NCBI GenBank assembly: GCA_959347315.1
Contig: OY365817.1
Span: forward strand, 1,923,537 to 1,987,536
Direction of reading: 5' to 3'
Source of the DNA: Bimastos eiseni
Taxonomy: Eukaryota > Annelida > Clitellata > Crassiclitellata > Lumbricidae
Length of the DNA: 64,000 nucleotides
The translations under genes were made by a program, and so were the position numbers. Under the pieces are notes generated by a model. It searched no databases. It was not told the DNA's origin and saw only the letters and a program-made list of their open reading frames with translations. Positions 32,998-63,074 of this stretch are shown one piece after another; position 1 is the first letter of the stretch, and each line of letters starts with the position of its first letter.

Positions 32998-33224
32998 ACA
33001 TTACATTACAACTGAACTTTGATATTACCCTTCTTCCAACAATTCTTGTTCAGAAGTGCACACGCCTCCACGATGCACATGCAGTTGTAATGCAGTGCAA
33101 TTGTGCGTGAAAGACTTGTCAAGGTGCTTACACAGTGACTCCTTGGACGAGGATCCAACCCACTCACCCATCACACACTGTACGTTACGGGCCGGCGGCT
33201 CTTGTCAATCGGCCACCGTGCCAC
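32998..33224 (-). mobile_element. tRNA-derived SINE, copy 2, inserted in unit A
   Basis: Same family as 4015-4205. Unit C reads straight through gcgttgacagttgatgg (52436-52452), while unit A has the SINE between two copies of ACAGTT (32992-32997 and 33225-33230). This gives exact ends, a 6-base target duplication and insertion after the duplication. The tail is (TTGTAA)n-like on the minus strand. Confidence 0.85.
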
Positions 33225-33695
33225 ACAGTTGTTGGTAGGGGAACAACAGCACAGGAAAGGTGAACGCTGTGGTGAAACATTTGGAAATTTGGAAATGGGT
33301 TGTTGAAAGGAAGGCATGCGAAAGAATGAGAATGGAGGCAGCACAGGCGTTGGCCTGAGCATAACATGACCACCTCAGATTCGTTATATTATTATCATTA
33401 TATAAATTATTATTAAAATAAAATTATTATAGGACAAGGCCTATACAAATTTTATAACAAGACTACTAAAGCAGAGCCGAGCATTCACTGAAGAGAGGCA
33501 CCTTTAAAGTTCTTGCGGATAGATCCGTAATTGATAGAGCTATGTGAAGATGGGTAACATCGACATGATGATGTTACTGGACTTCAAAGTGACCGACTAT
33601 GGACCTACTTTGGCAAGAATAGCACGATAGGACAGGAAGGTCAAGCTGATTACAAAGACCTATCTAAAAAGAATCATTTAAACTAGAATAAACTT

Positions 33696-33778
33696 TTGGG
33701 CTTATATACCCATACATGTACATACACGTATTATTTACATCAAATGCAAATAATACATGTATGGGTATTTAAGCCCAA
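33696..33778. repeat. Inverted repeat in unit A upstream flank
   Basis: The left arm ttgggcttatatacccatac and onward (to 33736) pairs imperfectly with 33748-33778 (gtatgggtatttaagcccaa). Part of the left arm is also found at 37425-37450, the edge of the unit, so the hairpin may mark a duplication joint. Confidence 0.7.
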
Positions 33779-35131
33779 ATAAATTTTATTAATAGGCAAT
33801 AGCAGATATGGATGGGCGCTTAAGTTAGAACACGGTCTTAGTAGCCAAAAATTTCATTTGACAACGCCCTCATGCAAACATCGATCAAAATTATGTGACA
33901 GCCCTTTTCCTATGCGGTTATTTGCGAAAAGAACATTTGTGAGCGCCCGTAATGGAGGTAAGTAACCTTTAGTCACTTGTTTACAAGAAATCAAAGCGAA
34001 CTATCCAAACTGTTTTAAAGCCAGGGCAATATCTCAGGGTCCTACTTTTGCGGTTAACACGTGCCCTTGCCAAGTTTGGTTGCCCTCTGACAAATATAGT
34101 CCCCTCTCAGGCTGTCAAACAGGACGTTGCCTTGTTGCCAGCTAGTTAGGGCGAACTATCCGAACTGTTTCAGAAAATATGTGTTGCAATCGATCTTTGA
34201 GAATGGAGGCCTGTATGGCCAGACCACTGAAGCAGAACCAAGCATGTACGGACGAAGTCTGTAGGCCTATGATTTCACGTGTCTACATTTCATAGTAGGT
34301 TGTTGATTTGGAAGTAAGGCTTACAAAACATCAATACATCTTAAAATCTTTGTTGCTGATTCGAATAAATTCGACTGACCTGTGAGGCAGATATGTTCAG
34401 AGCAACAGAAGAAACTCAACCTGGGCGTCAGCCAATAATAGCCTTACCTTAAATAGCTCAAGATGTATATAACAACTCCTCTCAAATACCTAATATAACC
34501 AGAGTTAAAACTTTAGAAATACTGGATGTTTTCCATCAAGATGACCTCCAACTCACAACCCACATAAACCACCTCACAACAATTTGCCCTCCTCTTATTA
34601 TGCAATTGGAGAACTTAATACCCTTTGTTTTCTCTTCCTATTCCATTCATCGCAAAACCAAAGACTAAACGGTTATATGCTCCCCCAATCTGGTAGGGTT
34701 TAATACTAGCGTCCGATTACTCCTAAGAAGACCAAGCGCCTAGGTTACTTAGAACAACCTTTCCCAACAGTGTCAGAACTTGCCAGAACTTACTGACATT
34801 GCAGATGGCAGACGCCTTTTCTCCATTTTATACAACCCAAGCGTGTTCTCCACCAACCCCCACCTCCACTTCGTTCCCAGTCCATTCACCCAAAGACACA
34901 TCTCTCATTAATATTTATCCCCAGATCATTATATAAAAATATTTACTCATTTGTTATTCAATCCTAGCTACTTTTATTGTCCACTGTCACCCATGCTGGC
35001 ATTTTTGCTTTTTTGTCAGAGTTTTTATTTCTAAATAAACGAATGAAATACACAGGCGAAGTTCATAAATGTGAGCAAATGTGCGAATTATTTCAGAAAT
35101 CTGGTTGCAATTTATATCATTCGCTGCATAG

Positions 35132-35228
35132 GACATTAAAACACAGAAAGAAAAAAACAAAAGATGGTACCAACTGCTACGTGGTTCCACTGAATAGAAC
35201 GAGAGCGGCTGAGCATGCTGAACTCTAG
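35132..35228 (+). pseudogene. Unit A exon 4 remnant (NCYVVPLNRT)
   Basis: Same acceptor (tgcatag) as B and C. The start reads GACATTAAAACA in the ancestral frame, then an extra base in an A-run shifts the frame. NCYVVPLNRTRAAEHAEL is readable only in the other frame, and a stop follows. Sequence after 35225 matches 57738 onward of unit C (agctgttaccattgtgg), so exon 5 was deleted. Confidence 0.85.
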
Positions 35229-36247
35229 AGCTGTTACCATTGTGGTTTAAGCTTATCAGTATAGAATAGATATGGCCAATTTGAATGTCTGTGATAAATT
35301 ACGACAATACACTTTGCACCTCAACCATTGTGCAGTGTTTGGAGCTTATTGCATGATGCAGCTTGCATAAAACACCATGAAGCCTGAAGGCAATAATGGT
35401 ACAATATTCTACTGATTGACGGTGGTAATTTTTATAATTTAAACGAAAAGCTTGATGTATGCTTTTCAATTGCTACAAGTCGGCATAGGCAGCGAGTTCA
35501 TTATATTACATTAATAAATTACTTTAGAACTCAACAACAATAATAATGTTCATTGTCAGAATACTGTTAGTAGAAAATAGCAGCAGACACGGGTGAGAAC
35601 TGCATGGTCACCCTCGCTCATATTATGCCACTGGTATGAAAATGAAGCGTCTAAAACTTCCTGCCGCGTACCTGCCTTTCAGACAGAGGATTTCACATGG
35701 TGGAGGACATTAGATTCTATTATTCATTGTACGCTGGGTAGAACATATGACTCTTTGCGTGCGGTTGACGGTGCTTTTATCGCTGTTGGCTTACCTCGGG
35801 AGATTAAAATCTCGGGCTAACTCGGGCAGTCAACGGGGTCGCAAATTAAAAATGACAGAAGTGGTGAATGATCTTACTGCATCAATGCATTAAATGTTAC
35901 TCTACATATCAAAAAAGATACCATAATTGCAATTCACCATAAAAAATTTCTGTTTTATTTCCTTAAGCATCGTCGTGAGGGTCGGTTTACGCATCGTGAG
36001 GGTCGATTAGGGTCAGGGCAGGCATCCTGAGAGTCGGTTAGGTTCAGGGTAGGCATCGCGAGGGCCGGTTAGGCCTAGGGTTAGTGTAGTTTATAGATTG
36101 CTTTCATTTGTATTGTTAAACTGCAATTAATTCGGTTGAATTCAAATTCTAGTATCATTAAAAATTTTCATATTTTGAATCTCGATATTTTTTGTTGCAC
36201 GAATTGTTTTTAAATTACAACTCAAAGCAAGCATGGGCTGTTTGTAG

Positions 36248-36399
36248 ATTCACCTTCAAGACAGAAGCGTGTTTCTACTGGCTCCGGTCGTCAGCTGTCA
36301 ACTGGTCCTATAGTAATAGGGATTTGTTATTGCACGATTTGTTATGACAGTTATTGCATCATCGTTGCCTGTGATTGTTTTATAATCGTAATAATGTAA
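36248..36399 (+). CDS. Unit A exon 6: furin site plus six-Cys peptide, frame intact
   Basis: The acceptor gctgtttgtag|ATTCA is as in B and C. With the split Tyr codon it reads YSPSRQKR, then a 24-residue spacer (VSTGSGRQLSTGPIV...), then a six-Cys core CYCTIC-YDSY-C-IIVA-CDC and a hydrophobic FIIVIM end, TAA at 36397-36399. The released peptide would be 42 residues. The rest of unit A is broken, so translation is unlikely unless an upstream exon outside the unit is used. Preservation may simply mean the break is recent. Confidence 0.7.
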
Positions 36400-37459
36400 G
36401 ACACAACACAGCCTATTGTAAAACCCGATTGATTATTGGCATGCTGAATGATCTGGAATGAAATTGGAAAAGACTTTCGTCGATTTTCCTACAATCGGTG
36501 GCTTTAATGCTTCATTATGGGTCTAACAGCAAAGCCATTGTGCTGCACAGACAATGATAAATGCAAATGATGCTTAAAAGTGATGTAATATAAAGCCAGT
36601 GGTTAAATTTCTCGTCCAGATTTGTCCGATCTCCACATAAAATTATTTATAAATAAAAATTCAAGCCCAAGTCAGGCTAAGTGACGAATCTGTAACAGAT
36701 ATCATGGCTATTTGCTATTCAGATAGGCAAAAAATGTGTGTATCAAGGTTTTCAGGGTTCATTAAAAAAAGAAAACATGTATTTAGGTGGTGGATCTCAT
36801 CTGTTGAGTTAGTGGATCTAAAATCTGGGGTTCAAGATCTCAGATCCGGCTGAATTTAAGCACTGTATAACGCTCATCATATTTCGATATTAAAGTTAAT
36901 CGAGATTTTCAACAAGGTGAAATTGTTCATAATTATTCCTACGAAATCATATCACATTACAGAAATATATTATGTGTATTAAGTCGTATATGTGCTTATT
37001 TTATAGTTTTGATTCAAGTTCTTGCTACATGCTACCCTAACCAGCTGCACCTATATATATACATATATTTATAATATATAATATATATACTAGTAATATG
37101 GCAATGTTATGTTTGTCATTCCCGTGTAGACCTAGTAGCCTACAATTGCTGATACTCTGATTGACGAGCCCTATTCAACTATTCCTGATCGTTAAATTGC
37201 GGTATCTACTGCTTATCGTATTTCGTCACGTGGCACTTGAACCTTAACGCATAGGTAACGAGACGCACTAAATTGATCTTTTAGTGAATAAAAATTCTAG
37301 GTAGGGAGGCAGAGTACGACTGTTAAGCAGGGTGCTGTTTTGGTCGAGATAGATGGAGTATCGTAGATAGGAAGGTCAAGCTGATCACACACATCTACCT
37401 AAAAAATCATTAAAACTAGAATAAACCTCGAGGCTTAAATACCCAGACACGTATCAGGC

Positions 37460-40400
37460 ATATTGGTTAGACGAAGAATAAGCCAGCTTTTGAGCATATC
37501 AGGGTACAACTTGGTACATAAGGCACGATCCGAGGGCAGGGGGGAGGTGTTGGCCTTCTGCTTAGACAAGATCTGGCATTTGAAACTATGTCAAACGATT
37601 CCAAAGCAATCCCATATAATTCTTTTGAGTACCTTACCCTTCGAATATTACATGATAAAGGCAGATATGTGAATTGTTTTTGCCTTCCCACTTTTTGAAT
37701 TTTGCCCCCTCCCCCCAAAATTAAAAATGGGGGGTCCCAAATTATCTTAACAAAAGTAATCTTAAAAATCCACTGGATAAACGTAAAAAGAACCGATTTG
37801 GGGGGCACATGAGGGGCACTGAACACTAAAACTGTAAGGAGTGGGGGGATTTGCCCCCTCCCCCAGTTTTGAAACTGGGGGACCGGTGCCCCCCCTGTCC
37901 CCTCTTGTTACACCCCTGAATAAAGGTACTACAGTTCTAGGAGTTATATATCGCACTCCAGATCAGAACGCCAATGACTTTGTTACCGAAATGGAATCTT
38001 TCATAAGTGACATAAAGCAGAAATCGAAGAAGCATTTACTGATCGAGGATTTTAATATAGACCTTTTAAAAAATATTACACACAGACCAATAGACGAATT
38101 TCTAAATTGCCTGTTATCGCACCATCTCCTTCCCATTATTACACGTTCAACGCGCATTACTGAATTTACTACGACTTTAATTGATAATATCTTTACTAAT
38201 ATTTGGAAAAAGGTGAAACTATCGTTTATCTTAATATCGGATATATCTAATCCTTTCCCAATTCTCGCTGTATTTGATTACGATTTGACGGTCCAACACT
38301 ATCTAACCTCTATGACCAAACGGATCTTTTCCCCAGATGCAACAAGTTCCTTCCTAGATCTCTTGGCAGTACCGACTGGACACAAACCATTGATGCATGC
38401 AACAGCCTAGATGTTAACAAGGCATATCATATATTCATATCTAACTACCAAAAAGAATATAACAGGGCCTTCCCGTTAATTATACGCAAAATGAATAAAA
38501 GGATGTTACCAAAAAAGGCTTGGATGACCAAAGGACTTATCAAATCATGTGCTAAAAAATCGAAACTCCACCTTAAGTTTTTAAAGGACCCATTCGTAGC
38601 CAACAAAACTAAATATAAGTTTAGAAATTCTTTGAAAAAAGTAAAAATACAAGGAGAAAAAAAATTATTTTGTGATTATAGCTCAATATTGGTTGATGGA
38701 GTGCCTACAACTGATCCGATAGCGATCGCTACCGAATTAAATACTTATTTTGTGATTATAGCTCAATCGCTGGCTAATAATATTCCGGTTAATTCGACAC
38801 CCATTGACAAATTCAAGACATCACCCAGATGTGACTCGTTTGGACTACCTGAAGTCTCCCCCCCCCCATGAATTGATAGCACTAGCAAATAGTCTAAAGA
38901 CATCTCATTCGACAGGAGTAGATGATTTGGATCCTGAAAAAGTTATCACTAGTATACCTAAAATATCTACTGTTCTATCAGAAATTATAAACTGCTTCTT
39001 CTGATCAGGCGTTTTTCCTGGCCATTTAAAGATTGGGACAGTAGTACCTGTTTTTACAAAAGGCGTGCGAGATATTGCATCCAACTATAGGCCTATCTCG
39101 GTTTTACCTGTATTTAGTAAACTTCTCGAAAAAGTCAGGCATGAACGTCTTACTGACTTTATATCAAAGCGAATATCCTATACAATGCTCAATATGGATT
39201 CAGGTCAGGCCATTCGACTGTCATGTCTTTACTCACTATGTAAGATAAAATTTCAGACGCCATAGATAAAAATGAGTATTCAATTGGCATCCTCTTAGAC
39301 TTAGCCAAGGCCTTTGATACTATTAACCACACAAACCTTTTAAGAAATTTATCTATCTACGGAATTCGAAATACTCAACTCAACTGGTTCAAAAGCTATC
39401 TCCAAGACAGACAGCAATTGGTGAAATCTGGAAATGCCTCCTCTGCAAGGCTCCGTCTTAGGACCACCATTAATCATTTACATCAATGACCTGTCTTCTG
39501 ATGCTTCATTATACTCCTTGCAAACGACACTAATTTATTTAATTCTCATCCATGTTTAGAAACTTTGATTAGTCAAACTAATGACGAGCTCAGTTATATA
39601 GCCGAATGGTTTACAACAGCCAAACTCACTCTCAATCTAGATAAAACTAACTTCATACATTTTAGAGCTCACAGAAAACCCCCACCGCAGCATTTACCTA
39701 CGCTTATTATCATGAATACTCCCAGCATACAGGTAATTTCAACCAAATTTCTAGGTATCTGTGTAGGCCAACATTTATCATGGACTGACCACATAACGGC
39801 AATATCATCAAAAATTGCTAAATCTCTTGGCATACTAACTAAAATTTCAAAAATTCTACCGGCAAAGACGCGATCCACTCTCTATTACACCCTCATATAT
39901 CCCTACTTTACATACAGTAACATCATATGGGCCTCTGCATATAAATCTAACTTAAACAACCTGCATATCTTACAAAAGAGAGCGATAAGATTTTTAACTA
40001 ACTTGCCGTATAATGCACACATAGAAAGTGAATTTCAAGAGAAGGAAATACTAAGAATAGAACAAATACGAATATTGCAAGTTGGACTATTTATGTATTA
40101 ATACTCAAAAAAATTACTACCTCAATCTTTCCGTTATTATTTCCCACCCAAACCAAATGAAAGCCTGCACGTATTGAGACACCCAAATACTCTCTTTACC
40201 CCACTGGCGAGAACTAACATCAGACTCGCATCCATAAAATGCATGGGCAAAAAAATTTGGAACAATATAGCGCTTGAGATGCGCATTGTGCCAAATATTC
40301 AACAATTTAAATATAAATATAAGCAATTCATTCTACATGATCTTAAAAGACCAGAAGCTTAGAGTAGGATACACTAAGCTTGGTCACGAGTCTACTTTGG

Positions 40401-40815: not shown

Positions 40816-40844
40816 TATTTATTAATCAGCCACCTCAGATATGG

Positions 40845-41467
40845 GTGCGCGTTTAAGCTAGGCCTCGATCTTGAACTTGATCTTAGTAGCCAGTAATTCA
40901 ATTTGACAGCCTTCTCGTGTAAACATGCAAGCGACCTTACGTTACAGCACCCTTCGTGTGGACTTATTGGACAAGTCCTATTGCGAACGCCCGTAATGAA
41001 GGTAGGTAACCGCTAGTCACTTATCAGCTGTTACAGCGAACTATCCGAGCTGTTTCACAGTCTAAGCAATAACTCAGGATCCTACTTCTGCAGTCCAACT
41101 GTGCACTGAGTTAAGTTTGGTTACACGCTGACAAATGTAGTCCCCTCTCAGCCTGTCAAACAGGACATTGCCTTGTTGCCAAAACTTAGGGCGCACGGTC
41201 CGAACTGTTTCAGAAAATATTCGTTTCATTCATTGAAACACCGTGTCTGTATGATTCAATGTGCCAACGTTTCGTAGTGGGTTGTTGATTTAGAAGTAAG
41301 GCATGCGTGACTAACAAAACATCAATACATCTTTTGCTGGGCTTTGTTGCTGATTTGTATAAAGTCGACTGATCTGCGAGGCAGATTTGTACAGACTTTG
41401 GTGCAACGGAAGAAACACTTCTTGAGTAAGTCTATGGTCATCTGCTGCAAGAGATTTTCAGCCGAAA
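40845..41467 (+). promoter_or_regulatory. Promoter and 5' flank of BRICHOS copy B
   Basis: Conserved with unit C (52840-53258) and unit A (33790-34400). TATAAA lies at 41358-41363 in ttgtataaagtcgactgatc, 105 bases before the ATG; unit C has the same word at 53150-53155, 104 bases before its ATG. Upstream conserved words include ctgacaaatgtagtcccctc and gccttgttgcc. Transcription probably starts near 41390. Confidence 0.7.
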
Positions 41468-41533
41468 ATGTTGCCAAAGATGTCTGAGGAAAAGACGACC
41501 ACTGAGCCAACGATAATTATCAGCCAAAATGAG
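41468..41533 (+). CDS. Copy B exon 1 (cytosolic tail)
   Basis: It encodes MLPKMSEEKTTTEPTIIISQ then NE, with donor gttaga. The first ATG is chosen because it is conserved in copy C (53259); a second in-frame Met at residue 5 is also conserved. Confidence 0.85.
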
Positions 41534-44500
41534 GTTAGAACTAAATTGCAACTATAATATGAATGCCGTTTTTGAAGGTGTGTTTTGTAGATTATTTCGA
41601 GCGCATGGATATAATAAAGCGCAATTGCCTACATGAAGTATCATATACTTAACTAATCACGTACAGTAGACGCCACGTAAGTGCATAGCGGATAGGTGCA
41701 TAATACGCTGGCTGGTTTTGTCATAATCTAGAGTATTTCAACGGGAGACAATTCCTGGTATTCGCATTTCGCATATGTGCATAATTCGGTTATGTGCATA
41801 GCCGACTACAAACCCCTAACGCATATTTATGTGTATGTGAGCGAAGTTTGTTTGTATAGGCAGCGAATTAGGTCACTTTATGGCGTCGACTGTTTTCGAA
41901 GGTAACGAATACTTCGTGTGAATGCGAGATAAGACAACAATATTATTTTGAGATTTTGATATGCCAATGCCATAAGCTTTGTCACACGGTTGGAGTGTTT
42001 TTTCTAGAAACAAATGTGTCGGAACGCATCTGTATTGTTAAAATAAATTACGCTAAAATTAGTTACTAAACAATTTTTATAGGACACAATGAGATTGTGA
42101 TCATTGTGTCCAATAACAGTTCAGTCAGTCAAAAATAAAAGCCAAAAGCAAACCATTAGTTTTGAAATATATTATGGCAGCAGTGAACACCAATTGTGTG
42201 GCACAACTATTATTTAAATTTTTTAGTACCTCAAAAAAGGTGCGTTCCGCCATAAAAACCATTATGCAGTACTGCCTAGAATTGTGTGCAATACGACTGT
42301 TGTACCACAGTGTTTAACATCATCAGCGGTGTAGGCCTATGCGTTGGAGTTTTGATGTTAATTTCGATTAGATCCAAAAAAGAAAAATTGTAAAGAAAAT
42401 TGTTCGCTACTACACCACACTGACATAGTTTACAAGTTCAACATTAATTTTATCTATTACCACCTCAACAATAGGCCTATTTATCGGACAGACATACATG
42501 TAGGCCTAGAAATCTGAATTCATGGAAAGTGGAAAACTCGATCGAAGCATGAGGGAAATCCGAAAGAAATTCACAGTGCGAGCAAATCAGTTCTAATTGT
42601 ATTTTAGGTGTCGCATCCGGGTGTGCGTTCAAATTCCCACCCCAACCGGAAGTGGATCATCATTGCCGTGAGTTTGGTTTTGGTGGCAGCGATTATTCTG
42701 ACAGCCATATTGGTTGGGATGCATCTCTTTACCCAGGGACAGAAAGACATTCTGAAGGTAGAGGAAGACAACAGTTGTTGAATTGAAATTATATTTAAAC
42801 AAATCTATTTTAATCTGATCAAAAGCATAGTTTCTGAATGAAGTCAATAAAAAAGAGTTATAGGTCGATATTAAATGCAAAAAGCATGAAGCGACGAAGA
42901 TGCAGTTTAATTCATACCCGGTACATGCTGCTTAAAATTTCCTATTTTATTCTACAAGCTCAACACTTATTTTTCTATTACCACCTAAACAGAGTAATTC
43001 ATTACAGAGAAATGCATGCCATATGTTTCAGTTCAGTTACATTCGCGACGACAACGCGAAAGAAGAGGTGACCAGTGACCCAAATACCAACATCGTCCAG
43101 TACTCTGTCACTGACCCTGGTTACGAGATGTGGGTGATCGACGACTTCAATCGCGTAAGAGAAATCGTCTACAATTCTAAATAATCGTATTTCAAGACTT
43201 ATTTGGCACTTTGAAAAATTATGCAGAAGACATTAGCCGAAAGAAGATATGACACCAAGTAAACTGTTTGTTTGCGTATGTATAGGCCTATATGGACGAG
43301 CAAACAATGGCAAACAATGAAGGATAGGAATAGGCCCTCTATATAATAAATTGCTATCGGTCACTTCTCTTATTCTCTGTGACCTAACTCAAACTTTCCT
43401 TCTCTACAGCTACTTATAAATAACTGACTAATGGTCAACCAGTACGGTGTCAATTTATTGACATTAAACCGCTCAAAGTTAACACATATTTCCTCTTTTT
43501 TTAAATACGAGAAACCATTAGGGGGGCCTTATATGTTCAATTCAGTCTCTTATGCATAATCGACTACATGATATATATATAAACCTATATATATATATAT
43601 ATCATGTAGTCGATTATACCTATATATATACCTATATATATATATATATATATATTATACTGCATATTTGCTCAAATTCTTCAAATTGACTACAATATCA
43701 GCTTAGTTTAGAGGCCACAAGTCCTCAGTCATCCACATCTCTGGCCACCAGATTCAGCGCAATTCACCGAAGCACCGTCCATATATACATACATATATAT
43801 ATATATATTGTTGGATTCAGCTAGTTATGGTCCCGAGTTCTAGCGAATCAAACATAACACTCTATGCTAAATTAAAAAAGGTATATTTAAACACAACTAT
43901 TTACAGTTAATAACAAAAGAAGAACTCATAATACCGTACAAAACCGAAGGTCACTTTCTCCACTGCGAAAACAATTCAACCGAACTAGCAGACTCGTAGC
44001 TTTAGTACATACATCACGAACTCTCGACAACAAAAGTGAAGGTTTCACCTGGGTCTCAAAATACCCCAACACAACACCAAACCTTAACACTCAAACCGTA
44101 CAACTCAAACGACAGACCTGGCCTCTGCACAACGGGTGCTCTCTCTAAGAAATGGACCAGTCTGCGAACACACCTTGTCCTAACCTTCGTATATACCTTC
44201 TGACCTTCCTTCAGCCAGCAGTGCCTAACCGTACCTATCTGCGTAGGCTCCTACTACCATGGAAGCTCAGTTGTACTAAGCGAGTATACAACAATATATA
44301 TATGTGCAGGATGAGGCGGAGGTGCATTTTTGCAAACGTGCGAATTATTTCAGTAATCTGTTCGCATTTTTTATCTTTTGTTGCGTGCTTATTTGCATAG
44401 GACATCAGAACAGTGAAAATAACAACAGATTCCACAAATTGCTACGTGGTTCCACTGAATAGAACGAAAGCGGCCGACCCATCAGAAGTCACTGGTCCAT

Positions 44501-46650
44501 CAGACATTAATAAGGTCAGTCTTACCAATATCCTTTATGAAAATGATCATAAAATGATCATTAATGGAATATGAAATCACCTTGCTTACCGAAAAAAGGT
44601 ATCAACAGTTCTGAGAACCATATTAATATGGACACTATAGAATCTTAATCCCACTGAAGAATTGAACAACTTAAAGAACTATGTGACGGCTTTGTTGCTT
44701 TTTGACTACGTGCCTGGACAGCATAAACTGACTAAACTTTTACTATAGACAGGGTGGGCCAGCAGAAATGGTCCGACTTTGCAAAAAATATCTCCGCCAA
44801 TAAAGATAGTTCACTCTAGTATTAGCTTGGAAAAAGTTGAACTGGTACTAGTTTTAAGTTTTTTTCTAAGCTAATACTAGAGTGAACTGTCTTTGATTTG
44901 ATGCCTTAAGTATAAATAACTTCCAAATATTGGCGGAGATAATTTCTTGCAAAGTCGGACCATTTATGCTGGCCCACGCTGTCTATAGTAAGAAATGTTT
45001 GGTTAAGATTTCCATCTTTCTTATATGGCTAAAACAGATATCATGTTGTGAAAAACAAGTCATTGAAGCTTTGAGTGGCAACAGATAAGCCCTCGCAGAG
45101 AGATACGTAGGTTACAGGCTCGCTCGTTATTTCGAAAAAGGCCAGGTCTTCCGTATTCCATTTTCAACCAATAGCATATATCGTGGACATCACAGCTGCC
45201 ATAAACTGAAAACCCAAACTTCGATGTTCTACCCATTTCCTGAAACCCCTCGTCTTTCATAAGTTTTATTTTTAAAGATTAGCGATTTGATAACTTTTTT
45301 AGCATCGGTGTAAAATCCGCTAATGATTAACTGCGTTCACTGAAAAGAAAATGTTGTTGATAATTTTCTATCATCCTGTAAACCAACACTTCTGAAATGA
45401 TTTAACTCTCATAATGATCCTAATGAATCGTTTTTAATGTCAATACTGCAAAAGTGCTGCACATCAGGTAGGCTTACTATTTTATTTGTACATTTAAGAA
45501 ACAGGGTGATTCCGACACTGTGACTTATCGTGCATACTACTCTCCCATTTCGGATGTTTCATTCCTCAGTAAGGCGGCCATGGACACCTGCCAAGGAATC
45601 TCTACCTACTGGCTTTATCCAATCTGCAAGGCCTCAGACTGTAAGAATTATTCTCAAGCTAAGCTCTTAAGCACGTTATGTTTAGCCTACTGGTACAATT
45701 GTGGCTGATCAGAAAAGACGAGCTATCGCCAATTTGAATGGCTATTATAAAATGACTTCAATGCATTTTAGAACCTAAAACCTCAACTATTGTGAAGCGT
45801 GTGGCGCATATTGCATAATCAATTTTCATATCAATTTGCATCTAACGCTGTGAAAGTTATAAATAGACAATATTTTACTAACTGACGGCGGCATTTTTTA
45901 TCATTAAAAAAATATTATGACGTGCAAGGCTTTCCATTATGACGTCGGCATAGGGAGGAATTCATTATAATAATTTCCATAAATCGCTCTGCAACTCACC
46001 AACAATAATTTGGGTCTATGTCCAATGTCGGTACGTTGTCAGTAGGAATAGCAGCCGACAAGAGAAAGAGGACTGCATAGTCACCCTCTCTCGTATGCCA
46101 TTATGCACTGGGTAACTTCCGATACGCATTCCTGCCATTCAGACCAAAAATGTCACATAGATGTCATTAGTTTCTATTATTCACTCCACGCTGGGTAGAG
46201 TGCGCAACCAGATGACTGTTCACGTATCGATGGTGGTTTACCTCTGAAGATTAAAATCTCGGGCTACTTCGGACCGTCAACAGGGGCGCTAAGAGCTTTG
46301 TGCCAAGTAAAACTGACATAGGTGGTGAATGATCTCACCGGATCAATTCACCGAGACCGTATACGGTCGTTATAAAAATGGTTCCCAACCCATTTAAATG
46401 TTCATATTCTGAATCTCTTTGGTTGTACGATTTTTACTTAAGAGCAATTGTGGTTGCCGATGGGTTGTTTATAGATTCACTTTCAAGACCGAAGCGTGAT
46501 ACAGAAGCTACTACACCAGATACCGGAGCACCAGGAGATACTACACCATCAACAGATACCGGAACAACAGACTCAGTAATAATTATTGTTTGTTATTGCC
46601 AGTTTTGTCATGACAGTGTATGCATCCTCATTATTTGTGTGTGTTATTAA
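41468..46650 (+). CDS. BRICHOS-domain type II membrane precursor of a six-Cys peptide, copy B (256 aa)
   Basis: Six exons: 41468-41533, 42608-42757, 43032-43154, 44401-44514, 45499-45640, 46475-46650, phases 0,0,0,0,1, 771 bases. Cytosolic tail 1-37, membrane helix about 39-63, linker, BRICHOS about 95-195, furin-type site RPKR 203-206, Thr/Asp/Pro spacer, then six Cys (238, 240, 243, 248, 253, 255) in Ile/Val sequence, ending at Tyr 256. BRICHOS marks: the VIDDFNR strand with its Asp, the Cys pair (Cys127 in NCYVVPL, Cys182 in DTCQG), SDVSFLSKAAMDTC and YWLYP, which mirror chondromodulin/tenomodulin (NSFLSSKVLELC, FWLKP, then RERR). Asn-Arg-Thr at exon 4 is a glycosylation sequon. Expected role: BRICHOS chaperones the beta-prone C-terminal peptide through the secretory pathway until furin releases it. 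The peptide's function is unknown. Confidence 0.88.
42608..42757 (+). CDS. Copy B exon 2 (membrane anchor)
   Basis: The acceptor is ttgtattttag and the donor gtagag; 50 codons. It encodes VSHPGVRSNSHPNRKW, then IIIAVSLVLVAAIILTAILV and GMHLFTQGQKDILK. Basic residues before the helix (HPNRK) predict a type II orientation, N-terminus inside. Confidence 0.93.
43032..43154 (+). CDS. Copy B exon 3 (linker and first BRICHOS strands)
   Basis: The acceptor is atatgtttcag and the donor gtaaga; 41 codons. It encodes FSYIRDDNAKEEVTSDPNTN, then IVQYSVTDPGYEMWVIDDFN and R. The WVIDDFNR strand with Asp matches the opening of BRICHOS domains. Confidence 0.93.
43557..43617. repeat. Perfect 24-bp-arm inverted repeat with (TA)n, intron 3 of copy B
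   Basis: taatcgactacatgatatat + atat pairs exactly with 43594-43617 (atatcatgtagtcgatta end). A similar TA hairpin sits at the matching place in copy C (56408-56441) with a different outer stem. Confidence 0.85.
43809..44293. mobile_element. Probable solo LTR, 485 bp, intron 3 of copy B
   Basis: It starts TGTTGG and ends with CAACA, an LTR-type inverted terminal pair, inside (AT)n sequence that would provide an atata target duplication. No such segment is seen in intron 3 of copy C. There is no internal retroelement coding sequence. Orientation is unclear. Confidence 0.55.
44401..44514 (+). CDS. Copy B exon 4 (BRICHOS, first conserved Cys)
   Basis: The acceptor is tatttgcatag and the donor gtcagt; 38 codons. 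It encodes DIRTVKITTDSTNCYVVPLN, then RTKAADPSEVTGPSDINK. Cys127 is the first of the BRICHOS pair and NRT is a sequon. Confidence 0.94.
44744..44988. mobile_element. Palindromic mariner-like MITE, intron 4 of copy B
   Basis: The end TATAGACAGGGTGGGCCAGC and onward (gaaatggtccgactttgcaa) is inverted at the other end (ttgcaaagtcggaccattta, ggcccacgctgtctata). The inner part (ctctagtattagctt) also pairs, so the whole 245 bases can fold. CAGGGTGGGCCA plus a TA target suits Tc1/mariner. The matching place in copy C lacks it. Confidence 0.88.
45499..45640 (+). CDS. Copy B exon 5 (end of BRICHOS)
   Basis: The acceptor is tacatttaag, which aligns with tacatttcag of copy C; the donor is T|gtaagaat. 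It encodes KQGDSDTVTYRAYYSPISDV, then SFLSKAAMDTCQGISTYWLY and PICKASD. Cys182 is the second BRICHOS cysteine. Without splicing the frame would run on for 21 residues to a stop (45706-45708), giving a form without furin site or peptide. Confidence 0.92.
46475..46650 (+). CDS. Copy B exon 6 (furin site, spacer, six-Cys peptide)
   Basis: The acceptor is ggttgtttatag and phase 1 matches exon 5. It reads YSLSRPKR, a spacer DTEATTPDTGAPGDTTPSTD, then TGTTDSVIIIV and the six-Cys core with loops Y, QF, HDSV, ILII, V, ending in Tyr and TAA. The released peptide is 50 residues. The spacer is longer than in A and C (ACA/GAT/ACC repeats), and the hydrophobic tail after the last Cys is lost. Confidence 0.85.
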
Positions 46651-47037: not shown

Positions 47038-47159
47038 GTGACTGTTTTTGTGGCTTTGAGTATTATTTTGTGTTCGTGTGCTGAATATGGAATCTGTGTA
47101 GGTCAATTGATGAGTGGATTAAACTTCAACCAAAGGGTCATTAAGTTATATGAATATAG

Positions 47160-49070
47160 TCTGCATTGCTTAAGCGGCTAGAGATTTCATTTGGACTGTC
47201 TGGTAACTTTCTTAGATGGTTGGCCTCATTTGTCATGGGTCTTCCAAGTCCACTTGGGTCCCTGCCCCTGCTTTGTATACAAGTAGACATAGTTTGAACT
47301 CTACACGCTGTGGTATAGGCAGCCAATGAAGTGTGTCGCGCGGAAGGGGCGTCACGCGGTCAAAGCGTCGTCGTCCGAAGAGTAGCCTCGCTGCAGCGTT
47401 CAGAACGGACGGTAGGCTGTCTAATGTACATTTCGGTGCTCCTGCAAGGACACTATTACAGTAGTCTACCATGGACAACACGAAACTGGCGAACGCAATC
47501 CGAGCAGCATCGAAGGGTAACGACTTCAGACAGGATTTATGAGACGCAGCTGGAGGATGCATCTGCCGACGGTCGTGGAAACATGTAGTTTCATCGACAG
47601 ATCAGACTGTAACATTATGCCCAGATCACGGACGGATTCCACCGATGTTAGAACGGCCCCTAGTACATGCAGAGGAGAGAAATTGAGTCTACTGCATCGG
47701 CCGTGAGTCGCGGAGCACAGAAGTTCAGTATTGGTGGGATTTAGACTGAGTCCGTTTGAAGCCATCCACGCGGAGAACCTCTCAATCGCAAGAACCATGC
47801 GCCTACATGAGCTGTCGACCTCGGACGGACGGTCGCTGGTATAGAGCTGGGAGTCATCGGCATAAAAATGAGACGATACACCCAGATCAACTGCCAACTT
47901 TTCGAGGTCAGCAGTATAGAGTATAAACAACAAGGGTCCAAGAACTGAGGTACTTCGAAAGCAAGTGAACGGTAGGCGGTGACGTTGCCATTGAAGTGAA
48001 CTGACTGCATCCTTCCGTTCAGGTAGGAGCGGAACCAGGATAGTGCCACAGACCCGACGCCGAAGGTCCTCGACAGCCGCTCTCAGAGAATGTTGTGGTC
48101 TACGGTGTCGAAAGCCGCGGATAGATCGAGTAGGCCAAGGCTCGCGTGATCACCAGCATCAACCGACTCAATGAGATCGGTGAAAACTTTTAGTCGAGCC
48201 GTCTCAGTAGAATGAAACCTTCTGTAGGCGGATTGATGATGAGGGAAAAGATCCGAGGATGTTAAGTAGTCGATGAGCTGTCTACAGACGATGCGCTCGA
48301 GTAGCTTCGACAGGGTAGCCAGGTTGGAGTTCGGTCGGTAACTGGACGGAGAGTCGGCAGGCAGTGACGGCTTCTTCAGACGCGGGGTGATGTACGATGA
48401 CTTGTAACTAGCTTGAACAACTCCGGAGGTCAAGGAGACGTTAAAAAGGTCAGTGATGTAAGGAGCGCGCAGATCAACACAAGACTTAAGAAGCCATGTG
48501 GGGAGCGGATCAACGGCCGAGTACTTATCCGGTGTTTCTAGCCGAAAATCATCATCCGTCGTGACCGGAAAAAGGTTCTCTTGGCATAAACCCGAAGGAC
48601 AACCCGAGTACTCCACCGCAGAGGCGCCCACCGTGGCAGCTCTAACGTCTCAAACTTTAGACTCGAAGAAGTCAGCAAGCGAGTCGGCGGTGATGCCAGG
48701 TGGTGGAGCCGATATATCACCACGGCACAGCACGTCGTCAATCAGCAGCCATAGAGCACGAGGATGACGACAAGAGTCCCCGCTGGTTTTCCAGCAGCTG
48801 CGTCGCTTTTCAGATGCCAGGCTATGCAGGGCGCCAAGTGACTGAAGCCAGGGGTCACGAGCGTAGTCTGAACCCCATCGGCGAGAGCGGCGCTCAAGCC
48901 TTCTCGACGAGGTCTTCGCTTCACGACAGTCTCGGTCGTACCATAGATGCGACGTCGTCCGCCGTACCCGGCATTTCTTGTCGACAATCGGCGCGTGTTC
49001 ATCTAATAGCTCACTGACGACACAGTGGAACGTCTCAGCCATAGGAACCATCATCAAAACTCAACGAAAA
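47160..49070 (-). mobile_element. L2/CR1-type LINE, 5'-truncated
   Basis: On the minus strand: linker with LLDEHAPIVDKKCRVRRTT (from about 49057), RT start SSYRPNSNLATLSKLLERIV, HHQSAYRRFHSTETA and LLDLSAAFDTVDHNIL to 48083. Then WFRSYLNGRMQSVHFNG, the catalytic block SSHFYADDSQLY at about 47870, FSAWMASNGLSLNPTNTELL, and ARIAFASFVLSMVDYCNSVL to 47233. The YADD core is intact but the frame is broken at several points and no endonuclease is present. It interrupts unit B's 3' flank, which is continuous in unit C near 59440. Confidence 0.9.
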
Positions 49071-49169
49071 CATAACGCACAGTTCGAAAACATAGCACTC
49101 TCAGACAAGAACTCGTGCAGTCAACAAGCGGTGCACCTCTCATCCAACATTCCTGCTTACATTGCATGA

Positions 49170-52600: not shown

Positions 52601-53149
52601 GACAAGACCACTGAAGCTGAACCAAGCATGCACTGAGGAAAGCCACTTTTCAAGTTCTGCATTAGTGGATTGATTAGTAAGCTAGCCTGTTTGGGGCATT
52701 CCAAGAAACACCACAGTTTAGCTAGTGTATTTAAGAATTAAAACTTCCATGTCGTCAACGGTGTCAAAAGAATTAGATATATACTGCGAGAAATGATATT
52801 CCATTAGGACAACCAATAAATGAGATGTTGTCTAGCGTAACGACAACATCAGACCAGTGAAAGTCCTTGTGCCATCTGAACTGCTCACAGCCGAGGAACT
52901 ACGCGTACCTTGGTACGGTTTGTTTGCCGCTGACAAATGTAGTCCCTCGCAGGCTGCCAAAGAGGAAGTTATCTTGTTGCAGAGAAGACGCGGCACTAAA
53001 AATATGCGTTTCAATCACACCCCCCCCCCTTATTTGCATGATTGCACATGATATGTGCCAACAGTCCATAGTGGGTTGTTGAGTAGGAAGTAAACGTGCG
53101 TGATTTAGAAAAATCCAAGAAGCTGTTACTCGGCTTTGTTGCTGATTTG

Positions 53150-53155
53150 TATAAA
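53150..53155 (+). promoter_or_regulatory. TATA box of BRICHOS copy C
   Basis: TATAAA within ttgtataaagtcgactgatc, identical to copy B over more than 60 bases around it and 104 bases before the ATG. In unit A the word is GAATAAAT. Confidence 0.7.
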
Positions 53156-53258
53156 GTCGACTGATCTGCGAGGCAGATTTGTACAGACTTTGGTGCAACG
53201 GAAGAAACTCTTCTTGAGAAAGACTTTGGTCATCAGCTGCGAAAGATTTCAGCCGAAG

Positions 53259-53324
53259 ATGCTGCCAAAGATGTCTGAGGAAAAGACGACTACTGAGCCA
53301 ACGATTATTATCAGTCAAAATGAG
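53259..53324 (+). CDS. Copy C exon 1 (cytosolic tail)
   Basis: The 22 residues are identical to those of copy B (MLPKMSEEKTTTEP...), with only silent changes; donor gtaaga. Confidence 0.87.
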
Positions 53325-56300
53325 GTAAGAACTGAATTGCAACTATGGTAGGCCTATAAGATTGCAGTTTGTGAAGGTGGGTTTTGTAGATTATATCGAG
53401 CGCATGTATAATAAATCCTAATTGCTTATGTCAATAGGTCTGTGTATGTGAATGGCTATGAAGTATCATGTACGTGAACTTTAATTAATCACGCACAGTT
53501 GACACCCCTTAAGTGCAGAACAGATCATAATTCACTGACTGATTCCGTTACAAAATAGGATATTTCAATGGAAGACAGCTCTGGGTATGTGTATAATTCG
53601 GTATGTGCATAGCTGACTACAGGCCCGTCAAGCATAAGTCTGTGTATGTGAATATACGTTTGGCTGCAAAGGCAGCGAAGATATTCAGGGTAACGAATAT
53701 ATACACGTACTTCGTGTTGAGACATATACACGTATACCGAATGCGAGACAAATAGCAAATACTGTTTTGATATTTTCACATGTCGTGCAGTAAAAATGCA
53801 CATTCATTCCACGTCATATATTCAGCAATGTCTACTGCTAAGAATTGTATGCAATGCGACTGTCGGTCCGGTTCTAGGACGATTGGTCATGAGATGATTG
53901 GTCATAAGGACGATTGGTCATAAATCTTCGGTCATAGTGAATCCGTACAAATCTAAATTAGAGCTAATGAAGTTTATAGGGTATATTAACATTTCAACCG
54001 CTAAACAAAACGAGGTTCAGTGGCTTAGAATAGGCGAGCGCCTCAAGCTCAACCTTTGCACTCTATAATGCACAAAATTCTTGAACAACTGTGCGCCACG
54101 TTATCTTGCAGACCACATCAGGCCACTGTCAGACGAGCCCACCAGGTAGCGACTGCGATCTTCCAAATCCTCCGATGCTTTCGTCTCAAGAACTAAGGGT
54201 AATATGGGCGATCGGGCCTTATGGGTCGCTGTCCCACGTGCCTGGAACAGTCTCCCTGCAGCCATCCAGGAAACCAAAACCCTTCCTGCCTTCAAAAAAC
54301 AGTTAAAATCGTACTTTCTTTGTAATATTGAGAAGTTAGTACTATAACTGCAGCGAACTGTCATGTAAAGCACCTTAGAAGTCGCTTGCTACCGACGGCG
54401 CTATATATATGAAAATTTTCGAAATTACAATAAACGCAATATTTATTTAAACTAAAAAGACACAAAGTCATAAAACATATATACAAAACTAAATGAGAGT
54501 TTTTAGAACACTGTATTATTATTTACTACTTTAAAGAATATAAGATAAGGCCCGCTGATATGTTAGAATGCTGGTTTTCCCAAAGGTACATGTAGCAACG
54601 GCCTGCGTGACACTATCTATCTTTCAGTAGGTGCTTAGTTGTTCAATTCCAGTAGCTCCTGGGAGTTATGTTGCTTTCTGCCTCATGCTTTACATAGAGT
54701 GCATACAGAGCCAGACAGTTTCGCCTTCTTTCGTGATGCGGTGCTTGCAGTAATCGAATGTGCTCATAATAAATGTTGGGTTGCCTTCCTTAGAAATGCC
54801 AAATTCACCTGCCACATCCATGATAAAGAGTGGTGTCCGAGATTTACGAACTTTGTAGACATGAATAACTCTTCTTGGACTTAAACCTGATTAAGCTACC
54901 GCCTCTATATGCCAAATTCACCTGCCACATCCATGATAAAGTTTGGTGTCCAACATTGACTAAACTTTGTAAACATGAATAACTCTTCTTGGACTTTTAT
55001 ACCTGATTAAACTACCGCCTCTATATGCCAAATATACCTGCCGCATCCATAATAAAGCTTGGTGTCCGAGATTTACTAAACTTTGTAGACATGAATAACT
55101 CTTCTTGGACTTTTGTACCTGATTAAACTACCGTCTCTATATGCCAAATATACCTGCCACAGCATCATTATTGATTGGTCTATTACCGGTCATCCATGAA
55201 CTATTATTAAATTTATCTGATTAATTTGAGTCACTAATAACTAATAATACAAATATTTGAACATTATGACCACTCGTCCCTATGACCAATCGTCCACATA
55301 CTGTCGTGCCACGGTGCTTAACATCAATAGCGGTGTATGCGTTTTGTATTCTTATAAAATCAGAGGTGTCACACAATTTTGCAATGACTGGCCAGTAGGA
55401 ATATTTCCAGCAAGTGGCGAGCAAGAATACCAAAGGCGCATGAGTTAGGGATCTCAGAGGGGGCCATGCAAACAGTTGAAGTAGGCTTTGAAAACGTGAT
55501 TCTGAAACGCATCAACCAACAAAGAAAAAGGCTTTATTATAAATCACAAATTATTCCTTTTATTCTCAATTGTGTCTTCTTTAGACATAGATTTTTGCTG
55601 GCCAGAACGATATCGTGGGTGGGCCACAATGGTCCGAGGGTTGGCTCGTTGACACTATGGTCTAGATTCATGGGAAGTGAGAAAACCGAAGCATGCAGGA
55701 AATCAGATAGAAATTCAAAGTGCGAGCAAATGAGTCTAATTATGCTTCAGGTTTCGCATCCGGGTGTCCGTTCAAGGTCCCACCCCAACCGGAAGTGGGT
55801 CATCATTGCCGTGAGTGTGGTTGTGGTGGTGGCGATCATTCTGACAGCCATATTGGTTGGGATGCATCTCTTTACCCATGGACAGAAAGACATTCTGAAG
55901 GTAAATGAAGAGAAAAGATGCTGAATTGTACTTATGGTATTATAGATTTGATTTAGTATAATCAGCAGCATATTCTCTGAATAAAGTCAAATAAATAGGA
56001 ACGTTATAGACAATTCGCATGCATTAAGCCCGAAGGGACTAAAGCTGAAGTTTAACTCATACAATGATGCAACTATAGTTTCTAATTTAATATTAACTCC
56101 TCATTTAGAAAATTAATGCAATATATTTTAGTTCTCGTACAATCGAGACGAGAACACCAAGGAGGAGGTGACCAGTGATCCTAACACCAACATCGTTCAA
56201 CACCATGTCACTGATCGAGAATACGAAATGTGGATCATCGAGGACTACAATCGCGTAAGAAACATCATCTATTAAAGTTAGGAGTGATCGTATTTGAAGA

Positions 56301-58651
56301 GTTATTTTGAGAAATTATGCATAAGACACTAATCGACAGGACAGCTATATAATTATGACACCGACAGTAAACTAACGCGGCTTGCATGTATATATAGGCT
56401 ATATATAGCCAGATATATATATATGTATATATATATCTGGCATTGCGTGACTATTTAGTATTACTGACATTTAAACCATTCAAAGTCTACACATAATTTC
56501 TTCTTTCTTTCATTATTAATTTCAGTTCAATTTTTATGCATAATTATTTATATACATATGTATATAGACATTGCACTGTTCAAATTGACTACATGATTGT
56601 GCTCAGTGCATATATATCTAATGCCCACATATCTCTGGCCAACTAATTCCAACTAAAACACAGAAATCTTGTTGCATTAGCTATACAAGGCAACGCCGCC
56701 GAGTGAGGAGTAACTTTTCGATAGCTGCTGATGGGGTCTAGCCTTAGCCTCTGACAAAAAGCGCCTGGGAAAACTCCCAAAGAAAAGCCAAACGCCTGAG
56801 CTGCCGGAAAACTGTTTAAACGACGACCTGTGTTTTTTCAGAAATGTTGTTGCATTTTGTATCGTTTTTGCATACTTATTTGCATAGGACATCAAAACAC
56901 TGAAAATAAAAACAGAAGATTCCTCAAACTGCTTCGTGGTTCCACTGAATAGAACGAAGACTGCTGACCCATCAGAAGTCAGAGCTCAATCAGACAACAA
57001 GGTCAGTCTTGAAATTTCTTATTTATGAGCATAATAATCATTCGACGCAGGAATATGAAATCACCTTGCTCGCAGAAAAAAGATATAAACAGTTCAACAC
57101 CCCAGATGTCCACTGTATAGAAACCATAAGCCCACTGAAATAGAAGAATTATTTAAAAGAACCACTAACCATTAATCTGACCTCCTACGGACTATCCTTT
57201 GGACAACCCTTTCGATTTGACGCAGCGCTCATGAGCTGGTGCCCTTCGCTTAGCATTCAAGTGGCGCTTTAGAAATTTGGAGATTACGATTGCGATTAAC
57301 CGACTTTATTACATTCTGACCACTACGTGGCGTACGTAGAACGTGTCTGGCCAGCATAAACATTATATCTTAACTAAACTTTTACCTAATATCTCACTAG
57401 ACCTAAAGTTACTTATATAATATTTTTGATCAATTACTAACGTCCTGAAAACCAAAACTTTAGAAAATTATATTTTTATCTCTTGAAAATAATACTTATA
57501 AATACTTTAAAACCCAATACTGCAAAAATCAACATTTATCAGGTACTATTTCATTTTTACATTTCAGAACAGGAATAATTCCAACATTGTGACTTATCGT
57601 GCATCCAACTCTCCCATTCCGGATATTTCGTTTCTTGATAAGGCGGCCAGAGACGCCTGCCATGGAATCTCTACCTACTGGCTCTATCCCAGCTGTGAAG
57701 CATCTCCAAAATGTAAGAACTATTTTCAATGTCTCATACTGAGCTCCATAGCTGTTACCATTGTGGTCTAAGCTTATCAGTATAGAAGAGATACGGCCAA
57801 TTTGAATGTCTAATTTAAATTACCACAATGCAATTTACACCTCAACTATTGTGCAGCGTTTGGAGTATAGGCCTCTATTGCATGCTGGAACTCGCGTAAA
57901 AATTAGTATAACGCCGTTATGGTAATAATCCTATACTAGGCTTCTAACTGACGGTGTTATTTGTTATCGTTTAAACGAAAATCATAACGCATAATTCTTT
58001 CCATTGCTACTAGTCTTCATAGGCAGCGAGTTGATTATATTATTTTCACAAATTGCTTTAGAACTCGACAATAATTGGCTTCACTATCAGTAAGTTGTCA
58101 TTGGCAGTAGCAGCCGACAAGGGTGATGATTGTATGCTCACCCTCTCTCATAATATTATGCCTTGGATAAGAAATATGAAGCGGCTAAAACTTCCTACGC
58201 ATTATTTGACTGCCTTTCAGATCAAAAATTTCACGTGGATGTCATTAGTTGCTGTTATTCATTCTAAGCTGGGTTGACACATGCACCTCTTTGCGCTCGG
58301 TTGACGGTTCGTAGGTCTGTATATCGATGGAGGATTACCTCGGACCGTCAACGTTAGGGGCGTTGTGCCAATGAAAAATGATATAAGCCTATGCCGTGGG
58401 TAAATGATCTCATCAGACAAATACTCTAAATATTTAAAATTTTCATATTCTGAATCTCTCAATATTTTTTACTGCACGAGCTATGAAAAAATACTACTAG
58501 GAGCAATTGTGGGTTGTTTGTAGATTCAAATTCGAGACAGAAGCGTCGACTATCACATCAAGATACTATACTAGGGTTCTGTTCTTGCACCGTTTGCCAT
58601 ATCGGCTATTGCACCATCGTCGACTGTGATTGTCTTATAATTATAATGTAA
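53259..58651 (+). CDS. BRICHOS-domain type II membrane precursor of a six-Cys peptide, copy C (241 aa)
   Basis: Six exons: 53259-53324, 55751-55900, 56132-56254, 56888-57001, 57568-57712, 58524-58651, same phases as copy B, 726 bases. Same layout: membrane helix about 39-63, BRICHOS about 95-196 (Cys127, Cys182), RQKR 204-207, then a 34-residue peptide with Cys at 219, 221, 224, 229, 234, 236. Exons 1 and 2 are almost identical to B, exons 3-5 moderately diverged, exon 6 strongly diverged except for the furin site and cysteine spacing. Intron 1 is enlarged by a 1.43-kb insertion. Confidence 0.88.
54085..54420 (+). mobile_element. LINE 3' fragment inside the insertion
   Basis: The frame reads DRALWVAVPRAWNSLPAAIQ, then ETKTLPAFKKQLKSYFL, the RT C-terminal end typical of CR1/L2 elements. 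It is followed by gacggcgctatatatatgaa, an L2-like 3' end. Confidence 0.85.
54796..55165. repeat. About 115-bp tandem repeat, 3.2 copies
   Basis: Units start at 54796, 54909, 55025 and 55141 with atgccaaattcacctgccac or atgccaaatatacctgccac, and share gaataactcttcttggactt. Highly similar copies, so recent. Nested in the intron 1 insertion of copy C. Confidence 0.93.
55751..55900 (+). CDS. Copy C exon 2 (membrane anchor)
   Basis: It encodes VSHPGVRSRSHPNRKW, VIIAVSVVVVVAIILTAILV and GMHLFTHGQKDILK. Acceptor tatgcttcag, donor gtaaat. Most differences from copy B are conservative. Confidence 0.94.
56132..56254 (+). CDS. Copy C exon 3 (first BRICHOS strands)
   Basis: It encodes FSYNRDENTKEEVTSDPNTN, then IVQHHVTDREYEMWIIEDYN and R. 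Acceptor atatattttag, donor gtaaga. The acidic residue of the WxxxD/E strand is kept. Confidence 0.94.
56408..56441. repeat. TA-rich inverted repeat, intron 3 of copy C
   Basis: gccagatatatatatat pairs with gtatatatatatctggc. It lies at the place corresponding to the 43557-43617 hairpin of copy B. Confidence 0.8.
56888..57001 (+). CDS. Copy C exon 4 (BRICHOS, first conserved Cys)
   Basis: It encodes DIKTLKIKTEDSSNCFVVPL, then NRTKTADPSEVRAQSDNK. Acceptor ttgcatag, donor gtcagt. Cys and NRT sequon conserved with copy B. Confidence 0.95.
57170..57302 (+). mobile_element. Interspersed repeat in intron 4 of copy C
   Basis: Matches 19315-19445 (ggactatcctttggacaacc, then ctttcgatttgacg and a GTGGCGCTTT motif) and is absent from intron 4 of copy B. 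Confidence 0.7.
57568..57712 (+). CDS. Copy C exon 5 (end of BRICHOS)
   Basis: It encodes NRNNSNIVTYRASNSPIPDI, SFLDKAARDACHGISTYWLY and PSCEASPK plus one base. Acceptor tacatttcag, donor T|gtaagaac as in copy B. NNS adds a possible second sequon. Confidence 0.94.
58524..58651 (+). CDS. Copy C exon 6 (furin site and six-Cys peptide)
   Basis: The acceptor is ggttgtttgtag. It reads YSNSRQKR, then a short spacer RLSHQDTILGF and the six-Cys core with loops S, TV, HIGY, TIVD, D, followed by LIIIM and TAA. The spacer is only 11 residues against 31 in copy B and 18 in unit A, but Cys spacing is identical. Confidence 0.87.
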
Positions 58652-63070: not shown

Positions 63071-63074
63071 ATAG

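Follow-up and report, generated by a model that had tools for sequence, protein, structure and literature searches.

A 64,000-nucleotide stretch of the genome of the earthworm Bimastos eiseni (assembly GCA_959347315.1, contig OY365817.1, positions 1,923,537 to 1,987,536 of the forward strand; hereafter the window, with coordinates counted from its first letter) carries a tandem array of BRICHOS precursor genes, two complete and one broken, whose last exons encode short, non-cationic peptides with one and the same frame of six cysteines. In these genes and in their relatives the precursor is kept while the terminal peptide varies. Tentatively, and with a likelihood that we place somewhat below even, we read the system as a conotoxin-like peptide library, in which a kept, membrane-anchored BRICHOS precursor would carry a hypervariable last-exon cassette of Cys-framed mini-hairpins, the cysteines being held and the rest remade between tandem copies; the window would then supply its genomic unit together with a three-rung, non-cationic class of hairpin.

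The array consists of three units in head-to-tail order on the + strand, from about 33.8 to 59 kb, and self-comparison of the window shows blocks about 75–85% identical between them. The pattern C-x-C-x2-C-x4-C-x4-C-x-C, which the first-pass annotation had picked from these same three copies, has exactly three matches when all six frames of the window are scanned, each of them on the + strand (36325–36378, 46591–46644 and 58580–58633), and was found in 0 of 200 windows in which non-overlapping two-base blocks had been shuffled; a chance origin was rejected. When the three exon-6 products are aligned, the columns without variation are those of the cleavage site, S, S, R, K and R (RQKR, RPKR and RQKR in copies 1, 2 and 3) and all six cysteines, so that the spacing proposed as common to the three last exons is indeed the same; none of the other 12 core columns is invariant, and no core position is Cys in one copy and another residue elsewhere. 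The DNA of copies 2 and 3 can be resolved into six coding exons each, bounded by AG acceptors and GT donors and joined in phases 0, 0, 0, 0 and 1, and two pieces of copy 1 were located:

35136–35225, + strand: remnant of copy 1 exon 4 with 53% identity to copy 3, then a stop (tblastn)
36248–36399, + strand: copy 1 exon 6, open, SRQKR and a 42-residue six-Cys peptide (36271–36396)
41358–41371, + strand: copy 2 TATA-like element, TATAAAGTCGACTG, repeated at copy 3 (string search)
41480–41533, + strand: copy 2 exon 1, coding part, MSEEKTTTEPTIIISQNE (same 18 amino acids in copy 3)
42608–42757, + strand: copy 2 exon 2, predicted membrane helix (19-residue hydropathy maximum 3.18)
43032–43154, + strand: copy 2 exon 3, linker and start of BRICHOS (exon reading, Pfam)
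44401–44514, + strand: copy 2 exon 4, BRICHOS (exon reading, Pfam)
45499–45640, + strand: copy 2 exon 5, end of BRICHOS, phase-1 donor (exon reading, Pfam)
46475–46650, + strand: copy 2 exon 6, coding part, SRPKR, a 50-residue six-Cys peptide (46498–46647) and stop (pattern, exon reading)
53150–53163, + strand: copy 3 TATA-like element (string search)
53271–53324, + strand: copy 3 exon 1, coding part (exon reading, tblastn)
55751–55900, + strand: copy 3 exon 2, predicted membrane helix (exon reading, hydropathy)
56132–56254, + strand: copy 3 exon 3, linker and start of BRICHOS (exon reading, Pfam)
56888–57001, + strand: copy 3 exon 4, BRICHOS (exon reading, Pfam)
57568–57712, + strand: copy 3 exon 5, end of BRICHOS, phase-1 donor (exon reading, Pfam)
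58524–58651, + strand: copy 3 exon 6, coding part, SRQKR, a 34-residue six-Cys peptide (58547–58648) and stop (pattern, exon reading)

Exons read from the DNA agree with tblastn of the relatives described below, and from these readings we infer the splice joins of copies 2 and 3 in the source species. Counted from MSEEK, the proteins are 252 (copy 2) and 237 (copy 3) amino acids long and run in the order N-terminus of 18–22 residues, high-hydropathy stretch directly preceded by R and K, linker, BRICHOS, SRPKR or SRQKR, and six-Cys peptide. The BRICHOS domain predicted after the membrane helix is borne out by Pfam (PF04089; 36.2 bits for copy 2 and 39.9 for copy 3, curated cutoff 25), the prediction of the helix agrees with the hydropathy peak, and the predicted lengths of 34 and 50 residues after the dibasic site are those found in copies 3 and 2. 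A second in-frame ATG lies four codons upstream of MSEEK in both copies; in copy 2 it reads MLPK, and MLPKMSEE is the start of relative P0002 and also occurs in P0007. Each of the three copies has TTTRTAG/ATTC as the phase-compatible acceptor of exon 6, and the coding part of exon 6 therefore holds little beyond the cleavage site and the peptide. The TATA-like element of copy 2 sits in a block (41259–41628) 85% identical to 53053–53425, and the TATA-like box of copy 1 is unlike that of the other two. Intron 1 of copy 3 contains a 116-bp tandem repeat (3.2 copies, 54796–55161).

In copy 1, exons 1, 2, 3 and 5 were not found by tblastn, which leaves exon 6 and the exon 4 remnant and agrees with the earlier description of this copy as wrecked. 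The end of that remnant and the sequence beyond it (35214–35772) share 76% identity with intron 5 of copy 3 (57735–58308) across 586 aligned columns, which suggests that the sequence past the remnant is the counterpart of post-exon-5 sequence in copy 3; the junction would then mark the site at which exon 5 was lost.

Exons 1–5 of copies 2 and 3 differ by 0.128 non-synonymous (dN) and 0.348 synonymous (dS) substitutions per site, a dN/dS of about 0.37, and the corresponding values for exon 6 are 0.595 and 0.856 (copies 2–3), 0.313 and 0.538 (copies 1–3) and 0.370 and 0.572 (copies 1–2). By this comparison exon 6 is changing faster than exons 1–5 at both types of site, on few sites; the cause may be selection, mutation or older ancestry. 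For the non-Cys core codons of copies 2 and 3, dN is 1.14 and dS 1.09, and their proportion of non-synonymous differences (pN, 16.5/28.2) exceeds the synonymous proportion (pS) of exons 1–5 (36/129.2; bootstrap difference 0.11 to 0.50). Positive selection on the core was considered and dropped: omission of the Cys codons inflates pN, which is 16.5/44.2 when they are included, and core synonymous change is also high (4.5/7.8), so that only faster change is claimed. Likewise, the zero non-synonymous changes in Cys codons are a product of how those codons were chosen.

These rates also bear on the idea that the array is decaying, with exon 6 unconstrained and its intact frames mere leftovers of duplication. 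The missing exons of copy 1, the near-equal dN and dS of the non-Cys core codons, and the exon 1 donor of copy 2, GTTAGA against GTAAGA in copy 3, would all fit such decay; however, the core cysteines occupy the same positions in every copy while no other position is invariant, the frames and stops of exon 6 are kept although the peptides differ in length by 8 to 16 codons, and exons 1–5 have the dN/dS of about 0.37 given above. We consider decay improbable.

To place the genes in a wider family, relatives were collected through three word-based searches of 5.8 billion proteins, the reach of which is relatives sharing short exact words. The searches returned 29, 47 and 62 overlapping rows, 94 relatives in total. 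The 28 BRICHOS-bearing rows of the first search are 42–62% identical to the window proteins and share the N-terminus, the transmembrane stretch and BRICHOS by sequence. The longest contigs given for the relatives measure 783 to 2964 bases, and the full-length relatives read without a break through all five intron positions, so that they look like transcripts. In the closest relative, P0001 (62%), ...CEIPKYPSESPSRKKR stands at the place of ...CEASPKYSNSRQKR in copy 3, and this supports the join of exon 5 to exon 6 that had been proposed; this support comes through the relatives, whose uninterrupted frames cross the same junction. One relative, P0029 (13 member sequences), consists of a stretch of exon 5, with 73% identity to copy 3, that continues into intron-like sequence, and is probably genomic DNA of a close relative. 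In a tree of 90 rows (P0029, P0044, P0047, P0040, P0042 and P0092 left out; support by the Shimodaira–Hasegawa-like approximate likelihood ratio test (SH-aLRT) only, 28 of 87 inner branches open), copies 2 and 3 group with P0001, P0003 and P0005 in a five-member clade (SH-aLRT 98), to which P0002, P0004 and P0007 are added in a clade of eight (SH-aLRT 99).

The first-pass annotation had made conservation of the six cysteines in orthologues a test of its proposal, and in this the relatives went against it: the exact frame of the window occurs in 0 of the 94 relatives, all of which were searched (the C-terminal part is absent from P0029 and P0044). The nearest frame is C-x2-C-x4-C-x3-C-x-C in P0002 and P0003, with one loop shorter by one residue and another N-terminal Cys group. 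By sequence, then, the frame is not conserved beyond the window. Because the relatives show variation of the peptide to be the rule of the family, this limits the claim of a conserved peptide family and does not refute the reading of the genes. Frames were tabulated for copies 2 and 3 and 91 relatives (P0029, P0044 and P0047 left out), of which 41 have a peptide of at most 60 residues, 44 a longer one and six no site by the dibasic pattern. The short peptides have 0 to 9 cysteines; five relatives (P0004, P0005, P0007, P0078 and P0088) contain C-x3-C-x4-C-x3-C, which we take to be the tachyplesin frame. One short peptide of the same precursor type, P0008, has two cysteines 13 residues apart, a charge of +3 and an arenicin-like look.

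The degree of uncoupling is clearest in close pairs, in which peptide identity is counted as matches over the shorter peptide. P0076 and P0082 are 96% identical in the precursor and 36% in the peptide, and the corresponding values are 87 and 30% for P0089/P0090, 83 and 26% for P0079/P0081, 81 and 29% for P0002/P0004, and 77 and 29% for copies 2 and 3; milder pairs also occur (P0082/P0092, 95 and 60%; P0017/P0093, 79 and 61%). Peptide identity averages 37% over the 118 pairs with a precursor identity of 60% or more and 25–29% in the precursor bands from 30 to 60% (784 pairs), and peptide identity is thus at its floor once precursors differ by 40%. The peptide of P0091 is 57–67% identical to those of P0077, P0080, P0083 and P0086, precursors of another clade to which its own precursor is only 43–49% identical; swapping of clients between lineages is not claimed here, as retention of an ancestral frame explains the case equally well. 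Long peptides, unlike short ones, keep their Cys frames across many relatives. They make up a second class (P0018–P0028, P0030–P0033, P0035–P0040, P0042, P0043, P0048–P0073 and P0075), with C-terminal parts of roughly 60–120 residues, 8–12 cysteines and recurring frames.

A variable tail on a kept BRICHOS domain behind a predicted membrane helix could also mean that the protein stays in the membrane and mainly chaperones other clients, the C-terminal peptide being a by-product. Six of the 91 relatives lack a dibasic site by the pattern, although two of these (P0042 and P0070) have a KR that escaped the pattern. Keeping in mind that the other 85 match the loose dibasic pattern before the C-terminal peptide, and that the tails keep an ordered Cys spacing, we give this explanation very little weight. 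Of the 33 short relative peptides with at least four cysteines, 27 have consecutive cysteines four residues apart, as against 12.0 ± 2.7 in shuffles, and gaps of three and five are likewise raised.

The fold of the peptides was approached through AlphaFold models of 35 relatives and the three exon-6 products of the window. The copy 3 product (three sequences) is modelled as a hairpin with strands at 15–22 and 33–40 and a mean predicted local distance difference test (pLDDT) score of 68.5; from these strand limits, Cys 19 is predicted to lie opposite Cys 36 and Cys 21 opposite Cys 34, with Cys 24 and 29 in the loop. The pairing put forward earlier (1–6, 2–5 and an inner 3–4) fits these limits, and a nested hairpin is accordingly predicted for the window peptides with modest confidence. 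In the model of P0002, the predicted strands 219–224 and 227–232 place Cys 223 by 228 and 219 by 232, at a pLDDT near 50–60. For the peptide by itself a known family was sought: the three exon-6 products matched nothing in Pfam at E ≤ 0.1, the PDB sequences gave no credible match (TRIM23, E 0.094, and adenylate kinase, 0.5), and there was no Foldseek match at E ≤ 0.001. A metal-binding role, which had also been raised, was dropped because the His directly after the third cysteine is not conserved (Y, H and H in copies 1, 2 and 3).

Published systems are compared here on the excerpts of the cited papers that were available. Annelid BRICHOS antimicrobial peptide (BRICHOS-AMP) precursors are described as a hydrophobic region (signal peptide or transmembrane), linker, BRICHOS and a Cys-rich, cationic beta peptide with one or two disulfides (PMC6780910). 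The window genes have the same order of hydrophobic region, linker, BRICHOS and Cys-rich C-terminus, in line with the suggested parallel to annelid BRICHOS peptides; but their peptides are neutral to acidic, as had been stated (net charge −1, −7 and −2 for copies 1, 2 and 3), and six cysteines allow three disulfides. For these two reasons we file them under transmembrane-type BRICHOS peptide precursors and not under proven antimicrobial peptides. Heteromastus filiformis has 13 BRICHOS precursors in one worm, and the five with a transmembrane helix (HfBRI-20, -23, -25, -28 and -54) share with the window genes a short N-terminal piece, the helix, BRICHOS, a dibasic site and a C-terminal peptide; a further likeness is the presence of several unlike peptide families within one species (PMC10745061). 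Those five are described as having none to two disulfides and as enriched in positive charge, in contrast to the six-Cys, non-cationic window peptides. HfBRI-75/91 are non-cationic with 11 cysteines, and AmIMP1/2 of Arenicola marina are Cys-rich (PMC10745061); the second-class relatives are possibly related to both. The six-Cys frame is not among the descriptions excerpted from that paper, the HfBRI and AmIMP peptides being set apart by description and not by alignment. Preproalvinellacin of Alvinella has a matching gene plan: five introns (coding introns in the window genes), tandem copies and a last-exon peptide, there under purifying selection, on a BRICHOS precursor (PMC5431198). It has a signal peptide in place of the membrane helix, and the division of change is reversed, the alvinellacin peptide being nearly fixed while its chaperone diversifies.

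Among hairpin peptides, the two-disulfide tachyplesin and capitellacin share the central C-x4-C with the window peptides (PMC7761999), which differ in their six cysteines, asymmetric spacing and lack of net positive charge; the tachyplesin spacing is printed as C-X4-C-X4-C-X4-C in PMC10745061. Theta-defensins are single hairpins with three disulfides, as is predicted for the window peptides, but they are 18-residue, end-to-end cyclic peptides of primates, and no homology is implied (PMC13001179). Bri2 (ITM2B) likewise has a membrane region, BRICHOS and a C-terminal extension kept as a hairpin (PMC6780910); the profile match is weak (8rnu, E 0.13). The first-pass annotation had proposed a new peptide family, and the searches above gave no known match for the peptide, but the precursor class is already known, annelid membrane-helix BRICHOS precursors being in print (PMC10745061), and high diversity of the peptide part between species beside a kept domain has been remarked before (PMC6780910). 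What is new is the six-Cys, non-cationic peptide and the combination of a changing peptide with a chaperone that is kept; the excerpts examined do not describe a class of three-rung, non-cationic hairpins such as is predicted here.

We lean slightly towards a reading in which this BRICHOS-escorted peptide is cut at R-x-K-R by a furin-like protease and is probably a secreted host-defence peptide. The predicted helix would anchor the precursor in the membrane of the secretory pathway, the N-terminus facing the cytosol, and BRICHOS would keep the Ile/Val/Cys-rich peptide from aggregating until three disulfides (1–6, 2–5 and 3–4) close round the central C-x4-C turn; the furin-like protease would then free it. 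Exon 6, coding little else, would let the peptide change while the chaperone stays constant, and the contact residues of the released defence peptide may evolve fast on a fixed Cys scaffold. The folding and release half of this mechanism draws on BRICHOS biology and on the sequence; for the defence action we see the chances, in view of the missing positive charge, as about evenly balanced. Since the peptides are neutral to acidic, a cationic, arenicin-like attack on membranes is not assumed.

The same missing charge weighs against a defence role and favours the less likely, if substantial, alternative that the freed peptide is hydrophobic and self-associating, with a structural, surfactant-like or signalling function, or stays in the membrane, as with proSP-C or Bri2. 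Copies 1 and 3 rank second and third in mean hydropathy among 44 short peptides (copy 2 is 19th), 13 of the 41 short relatives have a charge of 0 or below, and Bri23, the C-terminal extension of Bri2, is without antimicrobial activity (PMC6780910). On the other hand, 24 of the 41 have a charge of +2 or more, and strong turnover beside a kept chaperone suits defence, or an arms race, better than structural or hormone peptides.

Elsewhere in the window, long interspersed nuclear element (LINE)-like reverse transcriptase remnants lie at 1892–2263 (− strand; Pfam RVT_1 match above cutoff) and, between gene copies, at 47529–48649 (− strand; RVT_1 match above cutoff for 48086–48649 and below it for the piece 47529–48149). 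A stretch at 39502–40098 (+ strand), also between gene copies, is LINE-like by eye, without a Pfam match. Satellite-like arrays occupy 9395–9767 (unit 20 bp, 18.6 copies), 12798–13346 (9 bp, 61 copies) and 63073–63669 (41 bp, 14.4 copies).

BRICHOS domains are studied as anti-amyloid chaperones, and one question about them is what decides which clients they accept. Precursors more than 80% identical that carry peptides only 26–36% identical amount to a natural experiment on the breadth of BRICHOS clients, and the relatives are a source of Cys-framed peptides likely to be overlooked when known peptides are used as queries in homology searches. To this the window adds the gene structure behind the variation, a last exon coding little but the cleavage site and the peptide.

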